Source: Gammaproteobacteria bacterium
Lineage (GTDB): Bacteria; Pseudomonadota; Gammaproteobacteria; Pseudomonadales; Azotimanducaceae
DNA length: 64,000 nucleotides
Reading direction: 5' to 3'
Assembly (NCBI GenBank): GCA_026713185.1
Contig: JAPOOX010000165.1
Span: 1-64,000, forward strand
A program made the position numbers and the translations under genes. The stretch's first letter is position 1; each line of letters starts with the position of its first letter. Below are positions 14,253-52,171 of the stretch, in pieces. The notes under the pieces are model-generated. The model had not been told where the DNA came from. It did not search any database and was given only the letters and a program-made list of their open reading frames with translations.

Positions 14253-14623
14253 TGGACATGAACATAGTAGAGACACTGGTTCTCCTGGCACATGTGCTTG
14301 CTGCATTGGGCATCATTGGTCTGATCCTGCTGCAACAGGGCAAAGGTGCGGATATGGGATCAGGATTTGGCGCCGGTGCTTCATCGACTGTCTTTGGCAG
14401 CGGCGGCGCCGGCAGTTTCCTGACCAGAATTACCACGATAATTGCCATCGGGTTTTTTCTCACCAGCTTCGCACTGGCCTACTTTGCAAAACAGAAGTCA
14501 GAACAAGTCAGGAACCTTGGAATCCCTGAAGTTGTCGAGCAGGTCCCTGATCAGTTGCCAACTTTATCAACTGACCAGATATCGGAGATTCCAACAGTAG
14601 AACCGGAACCATCTGAAGAATGA
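14252..14623 (+). CDS. secG: Preprotein translocase subunit SecG
   Basis: 123 residues from ATG 14252, which has AGGAG seven bases upstream. Two membrane segments (about residues 5-24 and 52-75) flank the conserved loop LLQQGKGADMGSGFGAG. The tail is acidic and proline-containing. SecG joins SecYE in the inner membrane. The gene follows tpiA and is followed six bases later by tRNA-Leu(GAG), as in E. coli. Confidence 0.96.
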   Translation: MDMNIVETLVLLAHVLAALGIIGLILLQQGKGADMGSGFGAGASSTVFGSGGAGSFLTRITTIIAIGFFLTSFALAYFAKQKSEQVRNLGIPEVVEQVPDQLPTLSTDQISEIPTVEPEPSEE

Positions 14624-14628
14624 TTTTA

Positions 14629-14715
14629 GCCGAAGTGGTGGAATTGGTAGACACGCTATCTTGAGGGGGTAGTGGGGGCAACCCCGTGGAGGTTCAAGTC
14701 CTCTCTTCGGCACCA
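14629..14715 (+). tRNA. leuU: tRNA-Leu (GAG)
   Basis: An 87-base class-II tRNA. The acceptor stem pairs GCCGAAG with CTTCGGC, followed by A and an encoded CCA. The D arm has GGTAGAC, the anticodon stem-loop is CTATC-TTGAGGG-GGTAG with anticodon GAG, there is a long variable arm with GGGG/CCCC pairing, and a T arm with GGTTCAAGTCC. It decodes CUC and CUU. Its place after secG is the same as leuU in E. coli. It may be cotranscribed with secG. Confidence 0.96.
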
Positions 14716-14741
14716 TTGTTGTAACCCCCTGGTCCCGGAGG

Positions 14742-15965: not shown

Positions 15966-15975
15966 GATCTGCTCC

Positions 15976-36378: not shown

Positions 36379-37413
36379 TTACAAATTATAGAATTGCTCG
36401 CAATGACGTCGAAAGAGTCTGATTTCCCCGTCTGAGCTGCATAGACGGGGATGAGGCAGATGTTGTTTTCGGTTCCAGATTACAACATCCTGTAAAACGT
36501 CCCGCATCTGGGATGCAATAATGAATTTGTTTATGATCCTGGTGCGCAGTTTAAGCGGCAGGAAGCGCATGCCGATGATCCACCGCTTCGGCTTCAGTAC
36601 TTGCCGCACCTGGCTGACCAGCACCAGTTCAACACATTTGCCGTCAATGGGTGTTGTGAGTACCCACAGGCGCGTATCCATGTCGATAGAGTGCTCGTGA
36701 ATTTCGACGAATGAACAGCCTAACCCGTACACATGAATGACAGTGGAAACATCGTATGTGTAGACCTTTTTCCCGGCGATGGTCTGGTTTCGCGTGAAGT
36801 CAACGCAACTCTTCAGGTAGGCGCCATCTACCGACACTGACCCAATCTGGTTCACATTGCTATAGCCATGCACATAGCGCAGATGTCCAAGGTCAACAGA
36901 GTTCTCGGACGTTTCCTGGGGATGTCCCTGGAACTGGATGCTCCGGAATTCCAATCCGCTCCAGTCAGTTCCGTCCGCTGGTAATTCCGGAAGGCCCCAT
37001 TGTGGTGGCCGTCCCCCCAGTCCCCACCAGGCAAAGACTATTCCAACAATTTCGCGTGTCTCAAATACCTTGAGTCTGGCGGACCCGGGCGGGGGTGCGT
37101 AGGGCGTTGCAACACATTGACCGGTGACATCGTACTCGAACCCGTGAAAAGGACAAACGAGGCAACCGTTGCGCACCCTGCCTCCGGCTTCTGGTCCCAG
37201 TTCGGATCCCAAATGCGGACAAATAGCCTCAGCCACACAGATGTGGTCCTCTTCGTCGCACCAGACGACAATTTGTTTGCCCATCCAGGTTCTTTGAACC
37301 AGTTTCTTCTTTTCTATCTCCTTTCTTGAGGCGATGAAATACCACCCTTCCGGGAATGGAGAAAGCGTGGTCAGATCATTGTGCTCGATTCGGCTGTCTT
37401 TCATTGGCATCAA
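36379..37413 (-). CDS. Rieske non-heme iron oxygenase (sterol/steroid type)
   Basis: 344 residues. The Rieske 2Fe-2S ligands are CPH (Cys65, His67) and CPFH (Cys87, His90). The mononuclear iron site is Asp174, His177 and His182 in ENSVDLGHLRYVHGY, so a full oxygenase alpha subunit. This arrangement recalls the cholesterol 7-desaturase (Neverland/DAF-36) and KshA-like branches, and the Rieske enzymes of bacterial sterol C-4 demethylation, more than aromatic-ring dioxygenases. No ferredoxin reductase is adjacent. Last gene of an eight-gene minus-strand operon, 12 bases after the sterol-reductase-like gene. Confidence 0.85.
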   Translation of the reverse strand: MMPMKDSRIEHNDLTTLSPFPEGWYFIASRKEIEKKKLVQRTWMGKQIVVWCDEEDHICVAEAICPHLGSELGPEAGGRVRNGCLVCPFHGFEYDVTGQCVATPYAPPPGSARLKVFETREIVGIVFAWWGLGGRPPQWGLPELPADGTDWSGLEFRSIQFQGHPQETSENSVDLGHLRYVHGYSNVNQIGSVSVDGAYLKSCVDFTRNQTIAGKKVYTYDVSTVIHVYGLGCSFVEIHEHSIDMDTRLWVLTTPIDGKCVELVLVSQVRQVLKPKRWIIGMRFLPLKLRTRIINKFIIASQMRDVLQDVVIWNRKQHLPHPRLCSSDGEIRLFRRHCEQFYNL

Positions 37414-37425
37414 CTATCATACCCA

Positions 37426-38511
37426 TCAATAAACTCGTGGCACAATGCGCCACGGTACTTGTTTGCGATACTGGTCCCATAACGGACCATACTTTTCGGC
37501 GCAGCGGCGGTCATCGTCGCGCTCTCGTGGCAACAGAAAGACAATGTAATACAACGGATAGAGCCAGGGAACAAGGGTGAATGGCCAACCCAGGGCAAGT
37601 GTAAGTCCACAGCTCATGAGGATTTCGCCGAGATAATTGACATGGCGCGAGACACCCCAGAAACCACTGCACAACACATGTCGTTCGCCGTCAGAAATCG
37701 TCCTGGGTTCGAACACACCAAGGAATTTTTGTTGCGGGTTCTGTTTGAAGTAGTACTTCTGCATATTTGAACCACGCGCCAGCAGCCAACCACTGAAGAA
37801 AATGACTGTCGCCAACAGGTACAGCCATGCCGGGGCATCCGGGTTGGGAAGGTCCGATACGCCCCACAAACCGACGCAGTAGAAATACGGATACCAGGCG
37901 AGGCACCCCCAGATCAGCTTGAATCCGAGGCGCTCTGCGAATAAATCATAGGTGTACAGGTGAATACGTTCGAAGATCATGTAGTCGCAGATGAACCAGG
38001 TAAACAGCAACACGTAGAGAAAGACACCGAATGATGGATCATCAGGATAGCGCAGGTAATGATGAGCACCGAATGACAGCAGGTTCAATAACAAAAGCGC
38101 TGCTCCGGCCACGTAAAGGTACATCTTGGCGTCGGTGCGACCATTGAAAATTTGCGGATTTCTCATACGGCCTAGATAGTAGTCTGCCAGCCATGTCTTC
38201 CCCTGACCGGGTGAAATGAACATCAAGACGGCGGAAACAAGTGCCCCAAGCACGCACCCACCAAGGGCGCCGGGCCAGCGATGTTGCCATAACCAATCCC
38301 ACGGCATGATACCGCTGTGTCCGAGCACGAACCAGATGACTACACTCAGGGCAAGCACCGGCAGTCCGTTCAGGCGATAGGTCAGCAATTCACTGCTGTC
38401 ATCCTTGTGAACATAGCCTTTCACCCTGCGTGCCGGGACCACCAGATGCAAAACAAGAATCCCGGCGAAAGTCAGCCATCCGGAGAAAAAACCGATCAGT
38501 AGCTCAGTCAT
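37426..38511 (-). CDS. ERG4/ERG24-type sterol-reductase-like membrane protein
   Basis: 361 residues from ATG 38511 (38514 also possible) with about nine membrane segments. The C-terminal third carries the family signature: LCSGFWGVSRHVNYLGE near residue 285, and LLPRERDDDRRCAEKYGPLW then QVPWRIVPRVY at the end. This matches delta(14)-, delta(7)- and C-24-sterol reductases, which reduce sterol double bonds with NADPH. Bacterial members are few. The specific double bond cannot be told. Overlaps the upstream SDR by eight bases. Confidence 0.85.
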   Translation of the reverse strand: MTELLIGFFSGWLTFAGILVLHLVVPARRVKGYVHKDDSSELLTYRLNGLPVLALSVVIWFVLGHSGIMPWDWLWQHRWPGALGGCVLGALVSAVLMFISPGQGKTWLADYYLGRMRNPQIFNGRTDAKMYLYVAGAALLLLNLLSFGAHHYLRYPDDPSFGVFLYVLLFTWFICDYMIFERIHLYTYDLFAERLGFKLIWGCLAWYPYFYCVGLWGVSDLPNPDAPAWLYLLATVIFFSGWLLARGSNMQKYYFKQNPQQKFLGVFEPRTISDGERHVLCSGFWGVSRHVNYLGEILMSCGLTLALGWPFTLVPWLYPLYYIVFLLPRERDDDRRCAEKYGPLWDQYRKQVPWRIVPRVY

Positions 38512-39298
38512 CATTCCTCCAGGTGGTTCGCGCTACCAGTCGAATGGCTGCTTTGCGCGAAAGCAAACGGCCATTGATAAATGCACCGATACGATTGATA
38601 AATCCAGGAACCACTCGCGGACCTTTACCCAGAACACTCAGCGTCTTGCGTGCTACTACATCGGACTCCAGCATTCCTGGCACGGCCTTGCCGAAAGACC
38701 GGAAATACGCCGGAGTTCGAGTGGCGCCGGCACAACATGCCAATACATCGATGCCCTGTTGCCGCAACTCGTACCACAGACCTTCGGCAAACATGGTATT
38801 AAAAGCCTTGGTGGCTGAATAGACTGACAGTCCTGGCAAGCCTTGCATGCCTCCCATAGACGACATGAGGACAACCGCACCGCGCTGGCGTTCGCGCATG
38901 GGTCCGAGCAGGGCATGCAGCAGGATCAGTGGACCACGCACATTGACATCAATCACCTGCTGGTGAAGGTCGAGGTCTGAGTCCATGAAAGCGCCAATGG
39001 GGATAAAGGCGGCATTGTAGATCAACATGCCAACTTCCAGTTCCCGTGTTGCTTCGCGAATGATATCGTCCAACTCAGTATCCGCCAGGTCCAGCACCAA
39101 TGTGTGAATTTTCACCGGGTACTCTGAAGCCAGTCGTCCTGCAGTCTCCTGTAGAAGTTCTTCCCGCCGCGCCAACAGCAAAAGATTCATGCCGCGTGCG
39201 GCAAGCTGTTTGGCAAATGCTGCCCCCAATCCTTCCGAACCACCGGCAACAACCGCCCAGGGCCCGTATTTCTCGGGGAAATTAACCGGATTCCGCAT
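38504..39298 (-). CDS. Short-chain dehydrogenase (17-beta-HSD-like)
   Basis: 264 residues from ATG 39298; a start at 39313 would add five. The cofactor loop is GGSEGLG, the NNAG-like motif reads YNAAF, and the catalytic serine and YSATK are present. The C-terminus is basic with hydrophobic segments, which resembles membrane-associated 3-keto or 17-beta-hydroxysteroid dehydrogenases and 3-ketoacyl-CoA reductases. Overlaps the SRPBCC gene by about 17 bases, so tightly coupled. Confidence 0.85.
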   Translation of the reverse strand: MRNPVNFPEKYGPWAVVAGGSEGLGAAFAKQLAARGMNLLLLARREELLQETAGRLASEYPVKIHTLVLDLADTELDDIIREATRELEVGMLIYNAAFIPIGAFMDSDLDLHQQVIDVNVRGPLILLHALLGPMRERQRGAVVLMSSMGGMQGLPGLSVYSATKAFNTMFAEGLWYELRQQGIDVLACCAGATRTPAYFRSFGKAVPGMLESDVVARKTLSVLGKGPRVVPGFINRIGAFINGRLLSRKAAIRLVARTTWRNDD

Positions 39299-39737
39299 TT
39301 CCAGTTTCCACAAAGGACTTTAATCCAACACCAACATCGGTGAAACCGCGACGCATGTAGCCACCGAAACACAACCACACCAACGGCGCCAGCAAGCCAC
39401 TCAGACGATCCACATTATGGTATGTACAGCACGTCTCACCAACGGGTTCCAGAATCTGCTCACGCATGGCAAACAATAACCAACGTGTAACGAAAACCTT
39501 GCTCCAGCCAAGCAGACGCGGTTTGTCGAATTTGAAAACTGTTTCAGTGATGTTGAATTTACCCGGTCCCATTCTGACCAGCAGATGGGCAGGCGAGCCA
39601 ATTTGAAAGTCAGTGCTGGCCCGGGATGTGAATGTATTCCACTCCCCATACCGGTCCACATCCGTCAGCACATTCCAAACCGTCTCAGCCGACGCCTGAA
39701 TTGTAATTCTATCCGTGCATATATTGAATATGCTCAT
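39282..39737 (-). CDS. SRPBCC (START-like) lipid-binding domain protein
   Basis: 151 residues from ATG 39737, which overlaps the preceding SDR stop (ATGA). A longer in-frame start at 39791 has no support. The SRPBCC start is clear: ITIQASAETVWNVLTDVDRYGEWN, with later GWSKVF and EPVGETCCTYHN strands. These folds have a deep hydrophobic pocket that binds lipids, sterols or polyketides. In this operon it could carry or present the substrate; that is inference. Confidence 0.8.
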   Translation of the reverse strand: MSIFNICTDRITIQASAETVWNVLTDVDRYGEWNTFTSRASTDFQIGSPAHLLVRMGPGKFNITETVFKFDKPRLLGWSKVFVTRWLLFAMREQILEPVGETCCTYHNVDRLSGLLAPLVWLCFGGYMRRGFTDVGVGLKSFVETGNAESG

Positions 39738-40735
39738 GCCCGTTTCCCCGTTACACACAATGATCCAACCCACGCGTGGGTCTCTTCCCATAATCGCCGG
39801 GACACTGTTTCGTCCATCGATTCGTTGGACACTTCCGCAATATCACAGCGGTAGTAATAACACCCGCCCTGTAATGAGGATGTACTGGCGCAATGCACAA
39901 CGGTCTGTGCGCCGGCCGGCCTGCTCAGCAACACCAGGGAAGACATTGCGGAACTGAACCGCCACACCACTTTCCCAAAATTGCTACGCGGTTCTGCCCA
40001 TTGGGTCAGATTGGTATTGACCGACCCCGGATGCAGCGCCACCGACCGTATTTTCGACGTTCCGGAGAATCGTCTCTGCAGTTCAAACGAATGGTGTATC
40101 AGCGCAAGCTTTGACATGCCGTAAGCTTCCCAGGAATTGTAACGCGGGGCAGGCTCGAATAAATATTTGTTTTTTCCACGGTCATGCAAGTGAGAAGCGA
40201 CGTTGACCACCCGTGCATCACCACTCTCCAGGCCGCCTTGTTGCAACAGCGGAAGCAATGCATGAGTCAAATGAAATGTGCCCAGATAATTGGTACGCCA
40301 GTGAATCTCAAAGCCGTCACGGGTCAATGGAGGCTGGGTGGAAGGCGTGAAGATGTTCTTGTGAATGCCGGCATTGTTCACCAGTACCTGTAAACTGTTG
40401 CCATGAGTCTCCCGGTACCACGTCACAAAACCGTCGACACTGTGTGGATCGCATAGATCAAGTGCATGAACGGAAATGTTGTTCGGGTCGGCGCCGGTAC
40501 GGCGCAGGTCCGTTTGCAGCGATTCTTTCATAAAGGCTACTTTGTGCGGACTGGTGGCAACAACTCGAGCACCCCAGGAGGCAAGAATGCGGGCGGTTTC
40601 ATAGCCCAGAGAACCGGGCGAGGCACCCGTCACGATCACGGTGCGGCCGGAAAGATCAACTTTCTTCGCTTTTGGTTTCGGTAAAAGAAGGCGGCTCAAA
40701 TGGATAACGACCTTGGTGAATGTGTTTTGCATCAT
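39734..40735 (-). CDS. Short-chain dehydrogenase (retinol-dehydrogenase/WWOX-like)
   Basis: 333 residues from ATG 40735, one base after the previous stop. The nucleotide loop is TGASPGSLG, one residue longer than TGxxxGxG. VNNAG, the serine in VNVASHLH and the YGMSK catalytic pair are present. The N-terminus is hydrophobic and basic and may associate with the membrane. It resembles retinol dehydrogenases and WW-domain oxidoreductases, which act on large lipids. Confidence 0.85.
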   Translation of the reverse strand: MMQNTFTKVVIHLSRLLLPKPKAKKVDLSGRTVIVTGASPGSLGYETARILASWGARVVATSPHKVAFMKESLQTDLRRTGADPNNISVHALDLCDPHSVDGFVTWYRETHGNSLQVLVNNAGIHKNIFTPSTQPPLTRDGFEIHWRTNYLGTFHLTHALLPLLQQGGLESGDARVVNVASHLHDRGKNKYLFEPAPRYNSWEAYGMSKLALIHHSFELQRRFSGTSKIRSVALHPGSVNTNLTQWAEPRSNFGKVVWRFSSAMSSLVLLSRPAGAQTVVHCASTSSLQGGCYYYRCDIAEVSNESMDETVSRRLWEETHAWVGSLCVTGKRA

Positions 40736-40736
40736 T

Positions 40737-41738
40737 TCACTCTCTGGATGACACAACGAGCGGCTCACTGGCTTCCCACAGTCTGGCGCCGTTATCCGGG
40801 TCTGCAGCAGCAGCCGAGACGGACTTGATATGCATCATGTGTAAATACAAACCGGTTGTACTGCCGCTTTCTTCCGCACAGCACAGATAGATTACCGGAT
40901 TGATTGCATCTTCCGGGGACTGGAACATGCGCCGTAACAACGGGTTGATGATTGGCCGCAACCACGCGGGTGCATCTCTGGCGATATTTGTTGCCACACC
41001 ACCTGGGCACATGGCGTGAACTGCGACCGACACATCGTTGCCGGGATTCAATCGCCTTGATAGTTCAGTGGCAAAAGTACACAGCACCAACTTGCTGATA
41101 CCGTAGTATTTCAGGCTGGTTTTGATGCCGTAGTCGGTAAATGCACCGAAATTTTCGAAATCAATAGCGTTGGACGAGCGATGCGACTCCGAGGAAATAA
41201 ATACGATACGCGGTATGTTGCCTGATTTACCGGCGGGACGAATCACACCATCCTGTAACCAGCGATCAATCATCACTCGCGATGACAGAAAGTGCACTGC
41301 AAACATCATTTCAAAGCCTTGCGGCGTCTTGCGCGCACGTCTCGGCATCAGACCGGCATTCATGAGCGCGATATCCAGGCAAACTTCTCTATCGCGTAAA
41401 TCGTCGCACAAGCGATGCACAGAACGCAGGTCAGCCAGGTCAACTTCCAGAATTTCCACCTTGTCAGAACCGGAAATCTGTTTGATTTCATGACAGGCGC
41501 CAGAATGCCCCGGTCGGCATGCCATTATCACCTGTCCGCCACGGCGGGCCAGTTCGACTGCTGCCGCTTTGCCAAGGCCGCTGTTTGCACCGGTAACCAG
41601 GCAGGTTTTGCCATCGATGCGCAAGTCATCAACAACCGGGGTCAATTCAACCCCGCCGGTTGACCGGAGATCACGTACAGCGGCAGTAAAAGCATTGACG
41701 AAGGTGCCGTCTCCGGTCTGTTTCTGTCCACGTTTCAT
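40737..41738 (-). CDS. Short-chain dehydrogenase (retinol-dehydrogenase/protochlorophyllide-reductase-like)
   Basis: 333 residues. Cofactor motif TGANSGLG at about residues 49-56, LMNAG, the serine in VFISSESH and YYGISK as the catalytic tyrosine-lysine. About 40 residues precede the Rossmann core. It is similar in type to the next gene but clearly diverged from it, so not a recent duplicate. The gap to the sulfotransferase gene is 50 bases. Confidence 0.85.
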   Translation of the reverse strand: MKRGQKQTGDGTFVNAFTAAVRDLRSTGGVELTPVVDDLRIDGKTCLVTGANSGLGKAAAVELARRGGQVIMACRPGHSGACHEIKQISGSDKVEILEVDLADLRSVHRLCDDLRDREVCLDIALMNAGLMPRRARKTPQGFEMMFAVHFLSSRVMIDRWLQDGVIRPAGKSGNIPRIVFISSESHRSSNAIDFENFGAFTDYGIKTSLKYYGISKLVLCTFATELSRRLNPGNDVSVAVHAMCPGGVATNIARDAPAWLRPIINPLLRRMFQSPEDAINPVIYLCCAEESGSTTGLYLHMMHIKSVSAAAADPDNGARLWEASEPLVVSSRE

Positions 41739-41788
41739 GCTTACTCTGTCTCCTTGTGCCTGAGATTCGTGATCGTTCCGCTGCCTGG

Positions 41789-43036
41789 CTACTCGTATGG
41801 GATGCCGAATTGCTGCCGGTAATCCGAGAAGTTATCTTCAATCCATTGTTCGCTTAAACCAAAATCATCGAGTTGGTAGGCATGCCGACCAAAGCGATGT
41901 TGCTGATTCTGCTGCAGAAACAGACCAGCTTCGCGTTCTGCTTCATCTGTAAACTCAATTTCTGCCCGTTGGTATATGCGACGCAGTTGGGAGACAGGAT
42001 TCTCCATCAGGTCGTAGTAGGAAACATCCACAAATTTTACTTCTTCAAGGTTAGCCCGGCATTGCAGGGACGAGTCAACCATCCGGCGGTTTTTCCTGCC
42101 CCAATGCCGGCCAATTTCCACCGGATCAACATGGTCACTGAATATGGCGCGGCTGTGTGCAACCAGGCTGCAAAAAGAAGGTAATGTCTTAAGCGGGTCA
42201 CGATGAGTTTGCACAATAGTGGCATCAGGAAAGATTCTGGAAAATACATCCAGATATTCCAGATGATGAGGAGTCTTCAGTACACGATTGGGTGTCGGCC
42301 ATTGCCAGCATAGAATCTTCAGCATAGTACGGAGATACTCATAGGTACGGGTATGGTCCTGCTGTTCCAGCCATTGTGAATAAGACGGTACATGTAGAAT
42401 GGCCTCCGGCAACTGGCTCATGAAATTCAAATCCAGCAACATGACGTCTTCTTCCGGCGCCTCATGCGCAATCGGATGCGCGGCCATGAAATCCGGTGAC
42501 AGCCAGGCAATGAGGCGTTCGGCTGCCATTGCGCGCATTCGGAAGTTTGTCTTCCTGGTGTTGTGCATGGCATTTATCGGCACGGGCTCCAGTGATTCTG
42601 CTCCGGAAATACCGCGGACCTGCGGGTGAGAATGCAACAATCGATGTAATAAAGTTGTGCCGGTGCGTTGCAATCCCGTAATCATAATGATCCGTCCAGG
42701 GTCAACAGAGTGTATCTCTGGATGTCGCTTGAGCAACGCTGCCACCCGCAACCGTTGAATCAGGGCACTTAACAGCTTTGACTTCTGGATCATCCTTCCC
42801 ACCAGGGTCAATTCAGCTTCTTTATTGATGGCATCGATCAGCGTATCAAGGGCCGGGCGAAAGCTGTCATCACCGAGATCATCCAGTCCGGTCTTCTGTT
42901 TCGCCTGTGCGATAAGCGCATCCGTCTGCAAGCTGCTCGACGCCCTGTTCCGGCCAAGCAGGTTCAACAGCCTGACCGGTAACGGCCGGTATGGCTGCAT
43001 ATAGTTCGTGGAAGACACAAATTCCATCTTGCTCAT
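41789..43036 (-). CDS. PAPS-dependent sulfotransferase
   Basis: 415 residues of the Sulfotransfer_3-type family. The 5'-phosphosulfate loop is TGLQRTGTTLLHRLLHSH near residues 118-135 and the 3'-phosphate region is VQTHRDPLKTLPSF with its arginine. A histidine in the FDAA-like segment could be the base. The family moves sulfate from PAPS to alcohols of lipids, sugars or steroids. In the cytoplasm it would release PAP, which CysQ (21134-21970) degrades. 13 bases separate it from the DUF1214 gene upstream. Confidence 0.85.
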   Translation of the reverse strand: MSKMEFVSSTNYMQPYRPLPVRLLNLLGRNRASSSLQTDALIAQAKQKTGLDDLGDDSFRPALDTLIDAINKEAELTLVGRMIQKSKLLSALIQRLRVAALLKRHPEIHSVDPGRIIMITGLQRTGTTLLHRLLHSHPQVRGISGAESLEPVPINAMHNTRKTNFRMRAMAAERLIAWLSPDFMAAHPIAHEAPEEDVMLLDLNFMSQLPEAILHVPSYSQWLEQQDHTRTYEYLRTMLKILCWQWPTPNRVLKTPHHLEYLDVFSRIFPDATIVQTHRDPLKTLPSFCSLVAHSRAIFSDHVDPVEIGRHWGRKNRRMVDSSLQCRANLEEVKFVDVSYYDLMENPVSQLRRIYQRAEIEFTDEAEREAGLFLQQNQQHRFGRHAYQLDDFGLSEQWIEDNFSDYRQQFGIPYE

Positions 43037-43049
43037 GAGCTTTTTATAC

Positions 43050-44240
43050 TCAGTCCAAATTTTGCAGTTCGTCCCATTTCACCAGCCGGGTTGTCGGTTG
43101 CGGGTGTTCAACTGCCTTTACCCAACGAAAACACATGGTGCCACTACAGTGACCCGCCGTTTCTATCCAGTTAGGCAGGTGCGGGTCCCGATGCGCAACT
43201 ATCAGACGCACTGGTCCACCTGCCTGATATTGTGCCAGATGCTTGTTGGTATGTATGCGATGATAGCGATAATCCAGGGATTCCATCCAATAATTGCTTA
43301 ACTGAAAGTTCCAGTATTCACACTGTGGAGGCGTTACTTCAATCAGCAATACTTCATCTTCCGCAATCGCCCAATGGCTGTGATAGTAAGCAATATTGGG
43401 GTCTCCCCCGGCGGCCAATGACACATCAGGGTCAAACTGCGGCAACTGGTTACTGTGTTGCTGAAAGTCACGTGCCCATTTGGCAAACAGCAGCGGCGCT
43501 CCGGCTACCAGTGTCCCCACGGTTTGCAGTCCCCGGTCCAGTTGCATTGGTGTCAACAGGGAAGGACGCCGCTCATCTTCAGTGCAGTTGATGCGTTCAA
43601 TATGCAGTTCCGCCGGTGTCTCCGCATTGCGGTCCAGGAAGGTCTGGCGCACTACCAGAGTACCCGACTCAGGGGTCATCGGCAGCCAGTTTCCACTTTG
43701 CGGCTTGCTGCTTAATATCATCTCGAAATAACCGTCTTCACCGATATCCATCTGCCTGGCCTCAATATGCCCGGTGGGAGGCAATCCACCGCCCTGGCCG
43801 TAGTTGCCGGATTGCGTACCAAAACTCAGATAGGCAATGGTATTGCGGTGGCCTGTGATGCGATATTCGTAGTTGCCGTTCAAAGCGGCGGTCTGATAGA
43901 AATTATCGGGATTGTCGGCGCCCAGCTTGGTGGTTTCATTGACCACCCGATGCAACACCGGCGCATTCGGGTCGGCATGCTCGATGAAAGCCATTAATCC
44001 GGCACGGGTTATCCGGCTAAGGTACCGGTACCCTTCAGCCTGATTGAAAGCATCACGCGGAGTTGCCGGAAACTGTAAAGCAGCTCCCGCGGCTTTCAAG
44101 GTGTCACAGAATTCGTTCCAGGACTGACCGCTGACAACCCGCTGAGCAGATACATCGTCTTCAGTCTTGCCGCGTAATTTCCAGATGAACAGGGAAACGC
44201 GCCGGAACAGGGCAAGCATACTGATGACGAGTTTTCGCAC
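43050..44240 (-). CDS. DUF1214-domain protein
   Basis: 396 residues. The C-terminal half has the DUF1214 features: HWAIAEDEVLLIEVTPPQC, then YWNFQLSNYWMESLDY and HLPNWIETAGHCSGTMCFRW. The N-terminus has a short hydrophobic stretch (about residues 5-19) that may be a membrane anchor. The family has no agreed function; members occur beside lipid and xenobiotic metabolism genes. It is the first gene of the eight-gene operon, so its promoter should lie in the 310-base gap upstream. Confidence 0.8.
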   Translation of the reverse strand: MRKLVISMLALFRRVSLFIWKLRGKTEDDVSAQRVVSGQSWNEFCDTLKAAGAALQFPATPRDAFNQAEGYRYLSRITRAGLMAFIEHADPNAPVLHRVVNETTKLGADNPDNFYQTAALNGNYEYRITGHRNTIAYLSFGTQSGNYGQGGGLPPTGHIEARQMDIGEDGYFEMILSSKPQSGNWLPMTPESGTLVVRQTFLDRNAETPAELHIERINCTEDERRPSLLTPMQLDRGLQTVGTLVAGAPLLFAKWARDFQQHSNQLPQFDPDVSLAAGGDPNIAYYHSHWAIAEDEVLLIEVTPPQCEYWNFQLSNYWMESLDYRYHRIHTNKHLAQYQAGGPVRLIVAHRDPHLPNWIETAGHCSGTMCFRWVKAVEHPQPTTRLVKWDELQNLD

Positions 44241-44270
44241 GCTATATCTCTCCTGATTAATGGGCTGGAT

Positions 44271-44304
44271 TTACTCTGACCCCATTAAAGCCTGACCCCA
44301 TTAA
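44271..44304 (-). repeat. GGGGTCAGAGTA-type repeat pair
   Basis: On the minus strand, TTAATGGGGTCAGAGTA (44287-44271) and TTAATGGGGTCAGG (44304-44291). Related to the three units at 17134-17249. Common intergenic repeat type in gammaproteobacteria. Confidence 0.65.
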
Positions 44305-44426
44305 TTTGCAGGTAAGATACATCGTTGAATGGGCAGGTTCAATTTTTGAAGAATTTTATTCAGGAAACTGGTAAAGTCGAACCATCGAAAAACGCCATAG
44401 GTTACATGTCAGGAAATTATTCGTGA

Positions 44427-44514
44427 GAGCCTTCAGCGGGCCAAAAACCCGCCCCGCCGCTGTCGCGGAGCAATCAGGCCGACATACCTGGATTTTCTTC
44501 GTCATGTTTGATGA
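44427..44514 (-). repeat. 87-base intergenic repeat, copy 2
   Basis: Reverse-complement counterpart of 20761-20847. Contains the inverted segments GCGGG-CCAAAAA-CCCGC and CCGC-CGCTGTC-GCGG, so it can form two small hairpins. Confidence 0.75.
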
Positions 44515-44550
44515 GAATTTTTTGCAGATGAATATCGACCGGAATATAGA

Positions 44551-45369
44551 ATGATGAACGCTCATATCGCTCGCACTACTCTACCGCTTCTCGCAGTCTG
44601 CGCCTGTATTCTGGCGTATCCGTCTGCACCACTATACGCAGAGGAGGCAACGCCAGAAGAAAAGGGGTTACAGATCGCACGCGAGACCCGTGAGAAAGGG
44701 AGAGGTTTTGAAAATTTCACGGCCGAACAGAGCATGGTGCTGCGCAACAAGCAGGGAAAGGAGAGCCTGCGCCAGCTCCGTGTAAAGGTTCTCGAGACGG
44801 ACGGAGGCGGTAACAAAAGCCTGTTCGTCTTCGATCGCCCTCGCGACGTCCAGGGCACCGCGCTACTCGTCCACACACACAAGGAGAGCGACGACGATCA
44901 ATGGCTCTATTTACCCGCACTGAAGAGAGTCAAGCGCATCAGTTCATCGAACCAGTCCGGCTCATTCATGGGCAGCGAATTTGCTTATGAAGACCTGGGC
45001 ACCCCGGAGGTAGAGAAATATACCTACCGTTACCTGCGTGATGAGCCTTGCCTTGAGATGACATGCACGGTCGTCGAACGCTTCCCGCTGGACAAAAGAT
45101 CGGGCTATCAACGCCTGCTCGTATGGCAGGACAAGGACGAACTTCGCATCTGGAAGGTCGAGTACTACGACAAGAAGAATTCACACCTGAAGACGCTCAC
45201 GATTAGTGATTACAATCTGTATCTGGATCGCTTCTGGCAGGCCGGTGAAATGTCAATGGTCAACCACCTGACGGGTAAGAGCACCGTGGTGACATGGAAG
45301 GATTTCAGGTTCCGCACCGAACTCAAAGAAAGCGACTTCACCCAGACCGGACTGAAACGGATGCGCTGA
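44551..45369 (+). CDS. LolA-like outer-membrane lipoprotein-sorting protein
   Basis: 272 residues with a signal peptide ending about LYAEEA. The body matches the LolA_like family found beside RND transporters: GRGFENFTAEQSMVLRN, SLFVFDRPRDVQGTALLV, DDQWLYLPALKRVKRISSS and the FMGSEFAYEDL turn. Such proteins have an open beta-barrel pocket for acyl or other hydrophobic groups in the periplasm. The stop shares a base with the start of the beta-barrel gene (TGATG). Confidence 0.82.
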   Translation: MMNAHIARTTLPLLAVCACILAYPSAPLYAEEATPEEKGLQIARETREKGRGFENFTAEQSMVLRNKQGKESLRQLRVKVLETDGGGNKSLFVFDRPRDVQGTALLVHTHKESDDDQWLYLPALKRVKRISSSNQSGSFMGSEFAYEDLGTPEVEKYTYRYLRDEPCLEMTCTVVERFPLDKRSGYQRLLVWQDKDELRIWKVEYYDKKNSHLKTLTISDYNLYLDRFWQAGEMSMVNHLTGKSTVVTWKDFRFRTELKESDFTQTGLKRMR

Positions 45370-46607
45370 TGCCACAGGCCGCCGTCTTGATATTGGCCAC
45401 GGCCCTTCTCTCCGGAGTGAGCTACGGGGCCGAAAACTACGAACTCGACATTTTTGGAAGCCTGGACGTCGAGAACCTGTGGTATCCCCAAAATGGCGCC
45501 TATGCCGAACAGCGCGCATACGCAACCGGCTTTGTTGCGAAACCGAAACTCTTTCTCACAGACTACGATGGAAGCTGGAGTATCCAAATCGCACCGTTTT
45601 TTCGGTTAGACACTGCAGACTCGCAGCGCACCCACGCCGATTTACGCGAAGCCTACTTCCTTGTTTTTGGTGAAATCGGTGATGGGGAATGGGAAATGCG
45701 CCTGGGTGTCGACCGCGTGTTCTGGGGAGTCACCGAATCGCAACACCTCGTCGACATCATCAACCAGACCGACCTCGTCGAAAATCCAAACAGAGAAAGC
45801 AAACTGGGCCAACCCATGGCACACCTCACCTGGTCCACGGAACGGGGTATCATGGAATTTTTTGCCCTGACGTATCACCGTGCGCGCACCTTTCCGGGCG
45901 TCCATGGCCGCCTGCGTTCCTCTATCCTCATAGACGATGAACACATTGAATACGAAAGCGCCGCCGGGGAGTGGCACGTGGACCTCGCCGCACGCTACAG
46001 TAACAGTTTCGGACCGTTCGACGTCGGCTTAAGCGTATTCGACGGCACCAACCGGGATCCTGTTTTCATGCCGAATCTGGATGCTGATGGCACATTGTCA
46101 CTGGTTCAACACTACGAACAGATTCGCCAGTACAGTATGGACGGTCAACTTACCATAGAGTCCTGGCTGTTCAAGCTGGAAGCTCTTCGCCGTGAAGGCG
46201 CCAGTAATCTTATGGGCGCGAAAGAGGACTACACCGCTTTCGTCCTGGGCGGCGAATACACCTTCAACTCAGTTTTGGGTTCGGCGGCCGACTTCGGCCT
46301 GCTTGCTGAATGGAATTACGACCTGCGACAGGAGCGGGAACATTCATCCACTGAGTTCCAGAACGACATGTTCCTCGCCGTTCGCCTTGCGTTGAACGAT
46401 ACACAAAGCACAAATCTCATTGCCGGCATTCTGGCAGATATGGACTATTCTACGCGAACCCTGAGCATGGTTTTAAAAAGGCGCATCTCTGATCAGTGGT
46501 CCCTGAATCTGGAAACGATTGTCTTCATGGACGTCGACGAAAAGGACATCATTTATACGACCCGGCGAGACAGCTTCATTGCGCTGAATTTGACATACAA
46601 TTTCTAG
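45369..46607 (+). CDS. Outer-membrane beta-barrel protein (DUF1302-like)
   Basis: 412 residues from ATG 45369, which overlaps the preceding TGA; a start at 45294 would bury the signal peptide. The signal peptide ends near SYGAEN. The mature part has regular amphipathic strands and the last residue is phenylalanine (LTYNF), as in outer-membrane proteins. GVDRVFWGVTESQHLVDIINQTD is a segment typical of DUF1302/alginate-export-like barrels that occur with LolA-like and MMPL proteins. It probably forms the outer-membrane part of the set. Confidence 0.75.
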   Translation: MPQAAVLILATALLSGVSYGAENYELDIFGSLDVENLWYPQNGAYAEQRAYATGFVAKPKLFLTDYDGSWSIQIAPFFRLDTADSQRTHADLREAYFLVFGEIGDGEWEMRLGVDRVFWGVTESQHLVDIINQTDLVENPNRESKLGQPMAHLTWSTERGIMEFFALTYHRARTFPGVHGRLRSSILIDDEHIEYESAAGEWHVDLAARYSNSFGPFDVGLSVFDGTNRDPVFMPNLDADGTLSLVQHYEQIRQYSMDGQLTIESWLFKLEALRREGASNLMGAKEDYTAFVLGGEYTFNSVLGSAADFGLLAEWNYDLRQEREHSSTEFQNDMFLAVRLALNDTQSTNLIAGILADMDYSTRTLSMVLKRRISDQWSLNLETIVFMDVDEKDIIYTTRRDSFIALNLTYNF

Positions 46608-46664
46608 AACAGATTGTTCCTTATTCCTTCCCCGTTGAGAAATCTTGACCAGGAGTAACCACCA

Positions 46665-47486
46665 ATGAAATTTCCAGGTCTGTGCACAACACTCTTCCTC
46701 GTGCTTTTTTGGACGTTCGGAGCCGGTGCCGCCCAAAGTCCAGAATTGATACCTTTCTGGAATACCAGCGATGAATCAAATACCAGATCAATTGATCACA
46801 GTTCCTGGCAGGAATTGCTGAATGTTTATCTGGACGCCGAACATGCTTCCGGTATTCACCGATTCAACTATGCCGCTTTAAAGGATAGTGAAGGTGATCA
46901 ACAATCCTTGAGAAAATACCTGGTATCTTTGACTTCCCTCGACCCTCGTCAATATGCGAGGCAGGAACAGTTGGCGTACTGGATCAATCTCTACAATGCA
47001 CTGACGGTCCATGTCGTCACCGGACGATATCCGGTTGAGTCAATCAGGGAAATCAAGAGTGGTCTGTTCAACTTTGGCCCCTGGGACAAAGAACTTATCA
47101 TCGTCCAGGACCAGAATCTCACTCTGAATAACATAGAGCACGGCATTCTAAGGCCCATCTGGCGGGATCCAAGGATTCATTATGCGATTAATTGTGCGAG
47201 CATCGGGTGCCCGAATCTCTCACCCGAGGTGTATCGGTCGGATAACCTGGAACGGCTGCTGGAAGAAGGTTCCAGCGATTATGTGAATCACCCCAGAGGT
47301 GTATCAATTGAAGGGGACAGACTAACAGTTTCGAGCATCTTCGACTGGTGGAAAGACGACTTTGGTAGCACGGACGAAGCTGTACTTGAACATCTCAAAA
47401 AGTATGCAGAACCCGATCTTGCTGAACAGCTCCAAAAGTTCACAAAATTTGATGACGACTACGACTGGAACTTGAATGAGCCATAG
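46665..47486 (+). CDS. DUF547-domain secreted protein
   Basis: 273 residues with a signal peptide (about residues 1-22). The DUF547 core is clear: YWINLYNALTVHVVTGRYP, NNIEHGILRPIWRDPRIHYAINCASIGCPNLSPE, and FDWWKDDFG. Function unknown; the conserved histidines and cysteines suggest a transglutaminase/cysteine-protease-like fold or metal binding. It follows the beta-barrel gene by 57 bases and is probably part of the same transcript. Confidence 0.85.
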   Translation: MKFPGLCTTLFLVLFWTFGAGAAQSPELIPFWNTSDESNTRSIDHSSWQELLNVYLDAEHASGIHRFNYAALKDSEGDQQSLRKYLVSLTSLDPRQYARQEQLAYWINLYNALTVHVVTGRYPVESIREIKSGLFNFGPWDKELIIVQDQNLTLNNIEHGILRPIWRDPRIHYAINCASIGCPNLSPEVYRSDNLERLLEEGSSDYVNHPRGVSIEGDRLTVSSIFDWWKDDFGSTDEAVLEHLKKYAEPDLAEQLQKFTKFDDDYDWNLNEP

Positions 47487-47566
47487 TTCTCCACAGGGAT
47501 AAGCAAGCCGGGCTCGTTGTTACCACTGCAGATATTACAAGTGAGCACGCCACCTACAGCACAGAC

Positions 47567-47658
47567 ACTTGAATCCATTTTTCCGCTGGGCTAAAGTTGG
47601 CTCCACAAGGCTACCTGCCGTGGCAGCCTGAGCGTCATGGCCTTCCACTGCAACAGCC
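47567..47658 (+). repeat. 92-base intergenic repeat, left copy of an inverted pair
   Basis: Matches the reverse complement of 52219-52309 with roughly 75-80 percent identity by eye. Shared cores: ACTTGAATCCAT, GCTGGGCTA, CCTGCCGTGGC and TGGCCTTCCAC. It contains the palindrome CTGCC-GT-GGCAG. It lies in the 253-base gap before the MMPL gene; the rest of that gap shows nothing else. Confidence 0.8.
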
Positions 47659-47739
47659 GCATTGCGATGATCGGTATCCAACAACCGCTATTGGAACCGG
47701 CGGGTTAAAATCGGTTGCAAGCCACTGGACAGCGAAGCC

Positions 47740-50028
47740 ATGATATCTTTCTCTCTGGACCAATACATTGCTTTTACATTGCGATACCGATGGCTGGTGC
47801 TCGCGTTGTCCGTGGCTGTCATGTTGGTTCTGGCAGCCGGCCTTCGCTTCATTTCCATCTCCAACGACTGGCGCGACATGTTAGACGAGGACAATCCTCA
47901 ACTCGTTGCATTCGACGCCCTGGAGGATACCTATACAGCGACCGATGCGGCGGTGATCGCAATCGCGCCCAGGGAGGGATCAGTATTCACCCGCGAGTCG
48001 CTCATAGCCATCGAGGAGTTGACCGAGGCCTCATGGCAGTTGCCCTTGTCCAGCCGGGTCGACTCCCTTACCAACTATAATCCAAGCGAGGCGTTCGAGG
48101 ACGACCTGATAGTCGAGCCGCTCGTGAACGACCCGGGGTCCCTCAGCGATGACGATCTCGCGCGGATCAGAATGATTGCGTTAAATGAGAGCAGTATCGC
48201 GGGCCGTCTCGTCTCCCACGACGGGCGCGTTGCCGGGCTGGTCATCAGTTTCGCCATGCCTGAGCATTTGGACGACGTGGAAATAGAGATTTTTAACAAT
48301 ATCCACAACCTCCTGGACCAGGCTCGGTTGAATCATCCGGATATCGACTATCACCTGACCGGCAATATCTTTGTGAACCGGATAATGTCGGATGCGGCCC
48401 AGGACGATATGGGGATTCTCGTGCCCTTTGCATTCCTCGTCATCGTGACCGTCGCCGCTATCCTTCTGCGCTCCCTGTTGGGCACACTGTCCCTTGTTGT
48501 CGTGATCATTTTCGTCATCGTATCGACCATGGGCGTCATCGGCTGGACCGGTTTGGTGCTCAACGCCGCCAACTCCGGCATTCCCATCATCATCATGACA
48601 CTCGCAATCGCGCACTCGGTCCACATCTTCGCGACCATCACGTCCGGTATGGGCCGTGGTCTGGACAGGGACACGGCCATCGTCGAATCGCTGCGCGACA
48701 ATGCCTGGCCGATGTTCCTTACGACAGCCACGACGATGATCGGGTTCCTCAGCATGAACGCCTCGGACTCTCCGCCTTTTCGGATTCTCGGCAACCTGGT
48801 GGCGTTCGGTATGCTGACCACCTTTGTGTATTCCATGACGATTCTGCCGGCGCTGTTGTCGGTCCTGCCGTTGCGCGCGCGCCCTGTACCCGCCGGGCAA
48901 TCCCCTTTCTTCGATCGCCTCGGCGCTTTCGTCATTGCGCGCCGCACACTCCTGCTATGGTCCATGCTTATCGTTGTCGTCGCCCTGGTATCCGGTGTGC
49001 CCCGTGTCGAACTGACTGACAACTGGACACAGCATTTGGATGAGCGTTATGAGTTCCGGCGCGACACGGACTTTGTCATTGAGAACCTGACCGGCGTAGA
49101 AACCCTGGAATACAGCCTGAGCGCAGGTCGCGAAGCCGGCATCACCGATCCCGAATATCTGCGCAAGATCGACGCTTTCGCCGAATGGTACCGTGCACAA
49201 CCGGAAGTGGCGCATGTTCAGACGTTTTCAGCCATCATGAAACGTCTCAACAAGAACATGCACGGCGACGACCCGGCCTTTTACCGACTACCCGAAGACT
49301 CCGAGCTTGCCGCGCAGTACCTGCTGCTCTACGAGCTTTCGGTTCCCTTCGGCATGGACCTCAACAACCGCATGGACATCGGCAAATCCTCGACGCGGAT
49401 GACCGTCACGCTCCACAGACTGAAGTCCGAGGAGCTGCGCAGGCTTGAAGTACGCGGGCAGGAGTGGCTCCGCGCCAACGCACCCGACCTCGCGACCGAG
49501 GCATCGGGGTACAGTCTCATCTTCGCCCATCTGGCGATACAGAACGCCAAGAGCATGTTGGGGGGTACGGTCACCGGCATGGTCCTCATTTCGCTGATTC
49601 TGATCGGGGTTTTCAAAAGCCTGCGCCTCGGTCTTGTCAGCCTCGTACCCAACCTCATCCCCGCGGCCATGGCTTTTGGCGTCTGGGGCTATCTATACAG
49701 CGAGGTGGGTCCCGCCGGTTCTCTGGTAACCGCAATTGCTTTCGGCACCGTTGTCGACGACACGATTCACTTCATGAGCAAATATCTCAAGGCGCGTCGC
49801 GAGGGCTTTTCCCCGTCCGAGGCGGTGCGTTCCGCTTTTAATTCGGTGGGTCGTGCGCTGTTCACCACAACCATGATCCTGGTGCTGGGCTTCCTGGTGT
49901 TCGCCACATCGGGTTTTGCGATCAGTTGGATGCTTGGCCTCCTGGTAGCGCTCACGGTCGGTTTCGCGCTGGTCTGCGATTTCCTGCTCCTCCCGCCCTT
50001 GCTGATGGCCATAGACCGTAAGACATGA
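47740..50028 (+). CDS. RND/MMPL-family transporter
   Basis: 762 residues in two similar halves, each with one membrane segment, a large periplasmic loop and five more segments, so about 12 in all. The second halves carry the RND sequences TMGVIGWTGLVLNAANSGIP and AIAFGTVVDDTIHFMSKY. The type is that of HpnN and other lipid-moving MMPL proteins; such proteins share a fold with sterol-sensing domains. With the LolA-like and beta-barrel proteins upstream it could move a hydrophobic compound between the membranes. GC-rich with long antisense shadow frames. Confidence 0.85.
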   Translation: MISFSLDQYIAFTLRYRWLVLALSVAVMLVLAAGLRFISISNDWRDMLDEDNPQLVAFDALEDTYTATDAAVIAIAPREGSVFTRESLIAIEELTEASWQLPLSSRVDSLTNYNPSEAFEDDLIVEPLVNDPGSLSDDDLARIRMIALNESSIAGRLVSHDGRVAGLVISFAMPEHLDDVEIEIFNNIHNLLDQARLNHPDIDYHLTGNIFVNRIMSDAAQDDMGILVPFAFLVIVTVAAILLRSLLGTLSLVVVIIFVIVSTMGVIGWTGLVLNAANSGIPIIIMTLAIAHSVHIFATITSGMGRGLDRDTAIVESLRDNAWPMFLTTATTMIGFLSMNASDSPPFRILGNLVAFGMLTTFVYSMTILPALLSVLPLRARPVPAGQSPFFDRLGAFVIARRTLLLWSMLIVVVALVSGVPRVELTDNWTQHLDERYEFRRDTDFVIENLTGVETLEYSLSAGREAGITDPEYLRKIDAFAEWYRAQPEVAHVQTFSAIMKRLNKNMHGDDPAFYRLPEDSELAAQYLLLYELSVPFGMDLNNRMDIGKSSTRMTVTLHRLKSEELRRLEVRGQEWLRANAPDLATEASGYSLIFAHLAIQNAKSMLGGTVTGMVLISLILIGVFKSLRLGLVSLVPNLIPAAMAFGVWGYLYSEVGPAGSLVTAIAFGTVVDDTIHFMSKYLKARREGFSPSEAVRSAFNSVGRALFTTTMILVLGFLVFATSGFAISWMLGLLVALTVGFALVCDFLLLPPLLMAIDRKT

Positions 50029-50089
50029 TGAAGCGTCGAGCAACTGGCGTCTCTTGATGGTAAATGACACGACTGGCGAGGACTTCTAT

Positions 50090-52171
50090 TTATCCCAGGC
50101 AGGTCCGGTTATGAATTTTCCCCGGTCCATGGGGCGCCATTTCAGCCTTTGCAGATAAATCTATGCAGGCGTTGCCTGTTGCTCCAACTCCAATTGGTCG
50201 CTTGGACTTGATGCGGAACTTGAGCGACTTGCGAGGGCCGGTGGTCGGGAATGCATTGATTTTGAGCGGCTTGTCTGCTGATAGCACTTCAAGCTCGAAA
50301 TAGTACGCGACCATCAGAATGGTTATCGCTAATTCATATTCCACCACTCTCGACCCGAGGCAGGTATGTGTACCCAACCCATAGGCAGCAAATGCGCCGT
50401 GTTTCATATTCTCCTCGCGACCGGGAAGATACCTGTCGATATCGAACTTGAGCGGGTCCGGATAATTTTCTTCCAGGTAATGGACAGCAGTGGACCCGAC
50501 CACAATACGCTGCCCAACGGGTAACTCATAACCCTCTACGATGCAGCCATTCATGACATCTCTCAACTGCATGGGTATGATGGGATAGAGTCGAAGGGTC
50601 TCAAGAATCAGCCGATGCGTGGTATCCATCGCCTCCTTTGTAAGGTCCTCCGGTTGCAGGTCGCCATCACCAAACAGCGCCTCTGCTTCCCTGCGCACGC
50701 GCTGATAGATGCCAGGATGAGTGAACAAATTATAGAGTGAGAAAGTGAGGGCATTCCCCATATAGAGGGCTGCAACAAGCGATGTTAACAGCGCGAATTT
50801 GACATCGGTTTCAGGAAAATATTGAGGATCACTGGCGTGCAGGCTGAGTAGGTCGTCGGCCAGGTCGCGGGGTTTGTTTTCGCGCAGTGCTGGTGTGTGT
50901 AACCTCTGTATCATGGAATAGACATCTTCTATACGCCGTCGGATAGCGGACATTCGCGGCGTTCGAAGCATGAACCTCGGCAGGGAACCTTGCACATGGG
51001 TAATCAACGCCCGGTTCTTGTACATGAGGATGTCATCCATCTGTTCCGAGATGTTCATGCTCAATGCATATTGAGATTGTTGACCTGAAAAGATTTTTAG
51101 GCATGACTCCCGGGCCTTGATCACCTCGCCTTCGTTCCATGTATTCAGGACCAACCGAATCTCCCGGAGCATTTCTCCGAGGCGTTCGTTTATGCGGTTT
51201 GGGCTGAAGGGGGTCTTCAGCGCCTTGCGCATGCGGTAATGTTCGGCGCCATCCATGCCAGGCAGGCTTCTCGATGCGCCAAACACGGCCTCCAGATCCC
51301 TCATGAATTCCCTCGATCGCAGATGCAGCCGGCCGTGCCGGTGGACCCAGATGTTGGCTGCGTTTCCGGAGAGGAAGATAACTTTCGATCTGGTAAAAGG
51401 CTTCTTGATTGCGAAGACAGGACCATAATCGCGGTAAAGATCGGCCAGCAGTTTTGATGTATTTCCTTCCCTGAGCGATTTTTTGCGCAGCAGTTTCAAA
51501 AGGTTGACATTGGGAATCGGTCTGGTCGCAATCGCAATGGTGCGACGGACCGATGTCACCGCCACTGCAGATGCTACGGATTGACCGATGAGGTCCAGCC
51601 TGCCCAACAGCTTGATACGGTCTTTTGATGACTCGTAATCATCCGGCAGCAAAAGGAACCTGAATGCGTCGCAGGCATCGGCAAGACCGATGAGTATGGC
51701 GTCGCGGGGGTCGGGTATGCCGTCTCCCAGAATCGTATCGATGATTCGCTGGCGTACGATTGCCTGGGTTTGACCGCTGGACACATCGAATCCAGCCCGT
51801 GTCGCGTTACGTGTGAGAGACCAGAATCCGCCGATCGCATGCTCCAGGATCCCGTTTTTCACCAACCGTTCAAAAACCTGATCCAGGATTTCGTCCGAAT
51901 TGTTTCCTATCTTCTCGACCCAGTATTGAATACTGCGTGCTTCGGGATCTTCAGCAATGTCTGCCAGTACCGGGTCGAGAATTTCGTCTCCCAGAGGCGT
52001 TGCATCATTCAGCGACAGCGACTCGAGATCGGTGTCGATTCTAAGCTCAAGGGCAAGGTCTGCGAGGACGGCGCCGGCAAGAACACAGGAGAGATTCCAA
52101 CCTGCAACCTGTTCAAGGTAGCCGCTCTCATCGTTCAGCAAGAGTAGTATGACTTCTTCAGTCAGTCTCAT
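50090..52171 (-). CDS. GPP34 (GOLPH3-like) domain fused to a cytochrome P450
   Basis: 693 residues. Residues 1-210 match the GPP34/GOLPH3 fold: LTEEVILLLLNDESGYL, LAGAVLADLAL, ATPLGDEILD, ERLVKNGILE and PDPRDAILIGLADACDAF. Residues 235-650 are a P450: the ExxR motif is ETLR (524-527), RYLPGRE follows, and the heme cysteine is Cys604 in YGLGTHTCLG. The I helix reads LYMGNALTF, without the usual acid-threonine pair. In eukaryotes GPP34 binds phosphoinositide membranes; here it may tether the enzyme to the inner membrane. Convergent with the MMPL gene. Confidence 0.85.
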   Translation of the reverse strand: MRLTEEVILLLLNDESGYLEQVAGWNLSCVLAGAVLADLALELRIDTDLESLSLNDATPLGDEILDPVLADIAEDPEARSIQYWVEKIGNNSDEILDQVFERLVKNGILEHAIGGFWSLTRNATRAGFDVSSGQTQAIVRQRIIDTILGDGIPDPRDAILIGLADACDAFRFLLLPDDYESSKDRIKLLGRLDLIGQSVASAVAVTSVRRTIAIATRPIPNVNLLKLLRKKSLREGNTSKLLADLYRDYGPVFAIKKPFTRSKVIFLSGNAANIWVHRHGRLHLRSREFMRDLEAVFGASRSLPGMDGAEHYRMRKALKTPFSPNRINERLGEMLREIRLVLNTWNEGEVIKARESCLKIFSGQQSQYALSMNISEQMDDILMYKNRALITHVQGSLPRFMLRTPRMSAIRRRIEDVYSMIQRLHTPALRENKPRDLADDLLSLHASDPQYFPETDVKFALLTSLVAALYMGNALTFSLYNLFTHPGIYQRVRREAEALFGDGDLQPEDLTKEAMDTTHRLILETLRLYPIIPMQLRDVMNGCIVEGYELPVGQRIVVGSTAVHYLEENYPDPLKFDIDRYLPGREENMKHGAFAAYGLGTHTCLGSRVVEYELAITILMVAYYFELEVLSADKPLKINAFPTTGPRKSLKFRIKSKRPIGVGATGNACIDLSAKAEMAPHGPGKIHNRTCLG

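Follow-up and report, generated by a model that had tools for sequence, protein, structure and literature searches.

The window analyzed here, a 64,000-nucleotide stretch of gammaproteobacterial DNA, carries on its minus strand a gene in which a GPP34 (GOLPH3-like) domain is fused to a cytochrome P450. The gene occupies positions 50090..52171, exactly as given in the first-pass annotation, and encodes 693 amino acids between an ATG at 52171 and a stop at 50090; homologous fused ORFs occur elsewhere. The GPP34 domain, which that annotation had placed along the first 210 residues, spans residues 3–204 (51560..52165) and covers positions 1–199 of the 201-position Pfam model (PF05719; 112.6 bits against a gathering cut-off of 29.1, E 3.4e-32). 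A short, basic linker (residues 205–218; 51518..51559) leads into a conserved (K/R)PIP motif at the start of the P450 core, the I219 and P220 of which are invariant in a 32-row alignment. The P450 domain itself (residues 219–642; 50246..51517) scores 134.6 bits against a gathering cut-off of 22.8 (PF00067, E 5.7e-39). Within it lie the I-helix centre YMGNALTFS (residues 470–478; 50738..50764), the ExxR motif E524-T-L-R527 (50591..50602), invariant in the 32-row alignment, and the heme-ligand cysteine C604 (50360..50362) in GLGTHTCLG, a cysteine that is invariant in 44 fused copies within a GTHxC(L/G)G loop. The domain search proposed at first pass thus places both halves far above their Pfam gathering cut-offs, and the profile match, ExxR motif and heme-binding cysteine loop mark the second half as the complete P450 that had been described.

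As possible causes of a false joining of two genes, the first-pass annotation had named a sequencing error or an overlooked stop close to residue 215. In 46 ORFs of independent assemblies, the reading frame runs through the junction without a break; this set includes genomes reached by kinship, and two of its entries are the window gene re-read. One more fused ORF lies in G276. Five fused copies are on single-contig chromosomes: OX638327 (Nitrospirales), OX638355 (Terriglobia), OX638293 and OX638295 (both Rhodothermales) and OX638379 (Bryobacterales). One copy (L023) has a frame change near residue 175 that splits the fusion ORF. An assembly or frameshift artefact is ruled out because the fusion is intact in dozens of copies from five phyla, and some of these copies are on complete chromosomes.

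The distribution of the architecture was obtained from a scan of one genome per species in 84,980 species, which returned 40 loci; the query consisted of six short peptides of the window protein, and more distant members would therefore have been missed. By record titles, the fused copies belong to Nitrospirota, Acidobacteriota, Rhodothermota, Latescibacterota and Pseudomonadota, so that the count across genomes suggested at first pass finds the fusion in at least five phyla. Among 369 genomes sampled evenly from the class, only 7 carry GPP34 in any form, and the fusion is found in 2 (the window genome and G276). In a plasmid collection, only ordinary P450s were among the matches listed, and no record covered 80% of the query. 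Two loci each hold two diverged fusion copies (L035:9974-11998 and 13597-15618; L053:9228-11249 and 14588-16654), which suggests more than one substrate.

Trees of both domains fit a single origin of the fusion. In the GPP34 tree, a single branch (SH-aLRT 100) separates the 45 fused domains from the rest, and their nearest unfused relative is a second GPP34 of the window genome (L080; G000:C334:47692-48312), which adjoins an ABC transporter unit. In the P450 tree, the fused copies fall together with one unfused relative inside the group (L096 of G019, near a contig end), an apparent loss of the GPP34 fusion. An unfused sister (L007, G051) has, by eye, acyl-CoA degradation-like genes, short-chain dehydrogenase (SDR) genes and a TonB-type receptor as neighbors, and no GPP34, a setting that offers no direct clue. 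The window copy groups with the Nitrospirota chromosome, an Ircinia bin and G019 (bootstrap 98, SH-aLRT 97) and stands apart from other members of its family, G012 and G013. Since its closest relative is a Nitrospirota gene, in another phylum, the grouping points to horizontal transfer of the fusion gene. Elsewhere, bin contamination may add noise: one Latescibacterota and one Acidobacteria copy are nearly identical.

Modeled alone (pLDDT 82, pTM 0.82), the GPP34 domain shares the GOLPH3/Vps74 fold over 193–195 residues at 19–27% identity. It matches GOLPH3 at Z 19.0 (9qpq) and 17.3 (3kn1) and Vps74 at Z 16.3–17.9; all five GOLPH3/Vps74 entries listed score Z 16–19, and the next fold scores 4.3. 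Judged by this model, the domain is truly GOLPH3-like. The residues of GOLPH3 that bind PI4P are W81, R90, R171 and R174, a numbering that fits the PDB 9qpq chain. Only the tryptophan of this pocket is retained in the fused family. Its equivalent, W25, is kept in 44/44 fused copies, whereas the R90 position is alanine (A32) in 42 of the 44, and at the R171 and R174 positions, where the alignment is ambiguous by a few columns, neither of two alignments places an arginine or another basic residue. R102 of the fusion aligns with GOLPH3 R176. The phosphoinositide binding that the first-pass annotation had mentioned for eukaryotic GPP34 therefore fails on sequence in the fusion, and PI4P binding as in GOLPH3 is not supported. 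A second feature, F116-W117 in a beta-hairpin, is nearly invariant across the 44-copy alignment and could enter the bilayer. With the tryptophan kept, the PI4P arginines gone and this hairpin nearly invariant, the domain is more likely to dock on membranes in general than to read phosphoinositides.

Loss of the PI4P arginines would also suit a GPP34 that mediates dimerization or binds a partner such as the Rieske enzyme or the methyltransferase, rather than serving as a membrane dock, and eukaryotic GOLPH3 and Vps74 likewise bind proteins (COPI and Sac1 complexes are among the structures matched). This alternative is doubtful, though the strongest of those considered here: W25 and the F116-W117 hairpin would lie where GOLPH3 meets the membrane, the domain occupies the place of P450 anchors, and GPP34 is also fused to MFS transporters, another membrane setting. 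These last fusions, of about 620–635 amino acids with GPP34 at the N-terminus, occur in other gammaproteobacteria (L075:1489-3354, L076:217-2115 and L085:1489-3396; the first two confirmed by Pfam, the third judged from its sequence), and several membrane proteins therefore carry GPP34 as a module. At L081:1420-2670, GPP34 is followed by about 190 residues with apparent membrane segments, upstream of a multiheme cytochrome-like gene. SCO4440 of Streptomyces coelicolor, a GOLPH3-like protein linked to wall-deficient cell formation (PMC12402492), is a bacterial GPP34 like that of the fusion, but no enzyme fusion is described for it. Literature matches for GPP34 were mostly to the unrelated insecticidal name 'Gpp34Ab1'.

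The membrane dock, as the preferred reading, has a counterpart in the layout of anchored membrane P450s. In the model of the full fusion (pLDDT 79, pTM 0.66), the P450 core starts at about residue 217; in human CYP46A1 it starts at about residue 31, after the anchor. Both proteins would thus have a membrane-targeting element and a proline-containing linker before the core (Z 33), but at about 15% identity and with a 200-residue globular GPP34 instead of a transmembrane helix in the fusion. As a guide to substrate, fold comparison was of no use: the P450 half of the model fits complete P450 cores, among which CYP184A1, CYP51-fx, CYP46A1, BM3 and CYP170A1 tie at Z 32–33 with 14–19% identity. Because sterol P450s tie with non-sterol ones (BM3 and CYP184A1, the latter oleate-bound in one structure entry), the fold leaves the substrate undecided. 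NCBIfam P450 models fit the fusion only far below their cut-offs.

The active site departs from the usual P450 pattern. In almost every copy, the I-helix sequence is Y-(L/M)-G-(S/N)-(G/A)-L-(A/T)-F (GSGLAF/GNALTF type), and the acid-alcohol pair typical of monooxygenase P450s is absent in 44/44 aligned fused copies; ordinary O2 activation is therefore uncertain. P450s of the CYP7/CYP8 type, CYP74 and EryF also do without this pair; some pair-less P450s receive help from the substrate, and some act as isomerases. No redox partner was identified for the fusion P450, which counts against its being a sterol oxidase.

The genes around the fusion bear more directly on substrate. Immediately left of it and convergent with it is a plus-strand unit comprising a LolA-like gene (outer-membrane lipoprotein sorting fold; 44551..45369; PF17131 E 6e-60), a gene for a 437-residue protein with no match in a Pfam search (45294..46607) that, from its place, is probably an outer-membrane protein, a DUF547 gene (46665..47486; Pfam) and an MMPL/HAE3 RND transporter gene (47740..50028) with Patched/sterol-sensing domain matches and weak HpnN similarity. 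BstA, through which Methylococcus transports sterols, also belongs to the MMPL/RND proteins and resembles HpnN (PMC10942540). Beyond this unit, on the minus strand, are a Rieske oxygenase with a KshA C-terminal domain (36379..37413), an ERG4/ERG24-family sterol reductase (37426..38514; PF01222 E 2e-44), three SDRs (38504..39313, 39734..40768 and 40737..41738) and a sulfotransferase (41789..43036; Sulfotransfer_3 in Pfam); a further minus-strand gene (43050..44240) has a weak, short Pfam match to DUF1214. The first SDR is nearest to the NCBIfam models for mycolate reductase and 7beta-HSDH, both below cut-off, and the other two were assigned by profile matches. The Rieske oxygenase matches the SdmA model NF052579 weakly (E 3e-8, below cut-off). 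The Rieske and ERG-type genes are 12–15 kb from the fusion gene, in another transcription unit.

That these units belong together is evident by comparison with four congeners, in which argH and lysA adjoin with one small ORF between them and all of 36379-52171 (16 kb) is missing. The fusion was therefore gained or lost together with the sterol genes, as a single island. Moreover, among the sequences compared, the closest relatives of the island's Rieske oxygenase and transporter are in the two loci that also hold the closest fusion relatives: the Rieske is 76% identical to that near the Nitrospirota fusion gene, and the transporter is 77–78% identical to those beside the closest fusion copies. 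A sulfated product is possible, given the sulfotransferase in the island and the common occurrence of sterol sulfates in sponges.

Similar neighbors recur elsewhere. Of 42 neighborhoods (that of the window, 39 from the scan and two from kin, each reaching about 10 kb where contigs allow), an AcrB-type RND protein is present in 34 (a few matches weak, at 22–28% identity), a KshA-type Rieske in 28, an RND adaptor in 21, a sterol C24-methyltransferase (SMT) in 20 and an FAD oxidoreductase in 15. RND, SDR and FAD genes are common on their own. The ERG4/ERG24 and KshA-type Rieske genes of the window, together with SMT near 20 of the 42 copies, place the fusion in sterol-modification gene clusters. 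A conserved flavin amine-oxidase-like protein (PF01593), which may desaturate or reduce the sterol side chain, occurs near the fusion at L018:17430-18818 and in 14 other loci. At L018, the methyltransferase carries PF08498, the C-terminal domain specific to sterol methyltransferases. Three loci (L046, L047 and L051) hold a whole sterol operon, with a 3-beta-HSD-type SDR, Rieske, ERG24 (PF01222 E 1e-67), CYP51 and a squalene epoxidase-oxidosqualene cyclase (SE-OSC) protein, and with SMT and the fusion gene alongside. In the SE-OSC protein, two successive steps of sterol synthesis are joined in one polypeptide (L046:19335-21995, L051:19078-21995, G013:C26:143930-145786), and the bins that carry it look like sponge symbionts.

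Clusters of this kind have been reported from sponge symbionts. Kelly et al. 2022 (PMC9531527) describe steroid gene clusters (CSGs) in Ircinia symbionts that belong to many phyla; these clusters combine ERG24-CYP51-LSS with SMT, involve horizontal transfer and have the same make-up as the three operons. Sponge-symbiont clusters with bacterial SMT homologues beside sdmA/sdmB (Brown et al. 2023, PMC10070321, main text) share these homologues with the fusion neighborhoods. The main text of the former makes no mention of a GPP34-P450 gene, nor that of the latter of a P450, Rieske or RND protein. In the literature searched, which for these two papers means the main text, the GPP34-P450 architecture thus appears undescribed, in line with the first-pass remark that no protein of this kind was known.

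Profile searches of whole genomes, in which incomplete bins are a caveat outside the cases named below, show that the sterol genes vary among carriers. PF08498 is found in 29 of 40 fusion genomes, and 11 of the 40 have no detectable SMT. Epoxidase-cyclase frames (about 870–1230 amino acids) are likewise confined to 11 of the 40, other matches being of squalene-hopene cyclase size or short. No single sterol-specific enzyme is therefore universal; many carriers have SMT without a sterol cyclase. Of 58 relatives of the window genome, the only 2 with PF08498 also carry the fusion (Fisher p 0.0036 in this set). The window genome (G000), rated 98.8% complete, yields no oxidosqualene cyclase (OSC), no SMT and no convincing squalene epoxidase, and no CYP51 is among its 8 P450 matches; the Nitrospirota case (G058) is a single-contig chromosome. 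Unlike the CSGs of Kelly et al. (PMC9531527), the window genome thus has no LSS, CYP51 or SMT. With OSC, methyltransferase and CYP51 all undetected, the window fusion, on this gene content, probably acts on sterols made elsewhere and taken from outside.

The neighborhood also admits a non-sterol substrate: another membrane lipid (a polyprenoid, hopanoid, fatty acyl chain or glycolipid) or an RND-exported natural product, in symbiont islands that collect sterol genes. RND genes are the commonest neighbors, with adaptors in half of the loci, CYP184A1 and BM3 tie with sterol P450s in fold, and several fusion genomes, such as two Rhodothermales chromosomes, have neither SMT nor OSC. This substrate class is nevertheless unlikely, somewhat more so than the partner-binding role for GPP34, given that KshA-type Rieske and SMT genes accompany the fusion across unrelated phyla, the window ERG4/ERG24 gene is in the same island, and SMT is absent from those window relatives that lack the fusion.

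A more specific proposal makes the fusion a CYP51 that has acquired a new anchor and serves as the sterol C14-demethylase. The best PDB match of the P450 part of the family profile is Methylococcus capsulatus CYP51 (E 6e-33 against 8e-26 for the next molecule), and the window also encodes an ERG24-type reductase, which usually acts next, in a genome with no other CYP51. Like the M. capsulatus CYP51-ferredoxin (6mcw, 7snm, 7jj1; fold Z 33), the fusion would be a bacterial sterol-pathway P450 joined to another domain, but it has no ferredoxin, has GPP34 at its N-terminus and is about 20% identical or less to this and any other solved sterol P450, where CYP51 membership calls for more than about 40% and the CYP51 I-helix motif. 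Where CYP51 has that motif (FAGQHT in the CYP51 of L046), the fusion reads (L/M)-G-(S/N)-(G/A)-L-(A/T). Moreover, within 8 kb of the fusion, L046, L047 and L051 encode a separate CYP51 (E 4e-108 to that of M. capsulatus), by sequence a genuine one, and the fusion, unlike CYP51-ferredoxin, would be a second sterol-pathway P450 where the complete operon occurs. With the motif absent, a genuine CYP51 alongside and no cyclase in the window genome to make a 14-methyl sterol, C14-demethylation by the fusion is very improbable.

All 40 scanned fusion genomes are uncultured bins. From the bin names, we take the SB06xx, COS, RHO, CO36, IP30, Plut, p16x and OX638 sets to be mainly from sponges and corals, and mostly on such names, fusion carriers would be largely sponge and coral symbionts. 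The jk18x bins (10 of the 40) come from the sponge genus Ircinia and from the study of Kelly et al. (PMC9531527), and PMC8163846 names Rhopaloeides, Coscinoderma, Cliona and Ircinia as hosts that were sampled.

Sterol oxidation at a bacterial membrane is the most likely role for a real fusion that recurs in at least five phyla and sits beside sterol-modifying genes, and on balance we favor a membrane-docked cytochrome P450 that would oxidize a sterol. The membrane-docked lipid oxygenase proposed at first pass fits in this respect, with the lipid narrowed to sterols by the neighbors; its phosphoinositide component does not, the arginines being replaced. In membrane P450s such as CYP46A1, the core is preceded by a transmembrane anchor and a proline hinge; here, GPP34 and the short basic linker would stand in for them. 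The domain would bind the cytoplasmic face of the inner membrane through the conserved tryptophan and the Phe-Trp beta-hairpin, and would keep the opening through which the P450 takes up its substrate at the bilayer, the site of the sterols. There, the enzyme may act with the Rieske/KshA-type oxygenase, the sterol reductase and SDRs, and in many strains alongside the C-24 sterol methyltransferase, while RND/MMPL transporters may move substrate or product. It would not be the C14-demethylase of these clusters, a step for which the genuine CYP51 is present beside it in full operons. In the window genome, the sterols would come from outside, probably from an animal host.

More tentatively, and with clearly less than even confidence, horizontal transfer may have spread a new family of sterol P450s with a GOLPH3-type peripheral membrane dock among sponge and coral symbionts of several phyla. 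Often unable to make sterols themselves, these bacteria would remodel those of host or neighbors without the usual oxygen-activating pair, and so finish part of the unusual sterol chemistry of sponges. A fusion of this kind would give bacterial GPP34 domains a concrete biochemical setting and offer a new way of placing a P450 on a membrane. For the sterol clusters of sponge symbionts, it would add a so far unrecorded oxidase, and these clusters bear on which organisms produce the unusual sterols of sponges that serve as the oldest biomarkers of animals.
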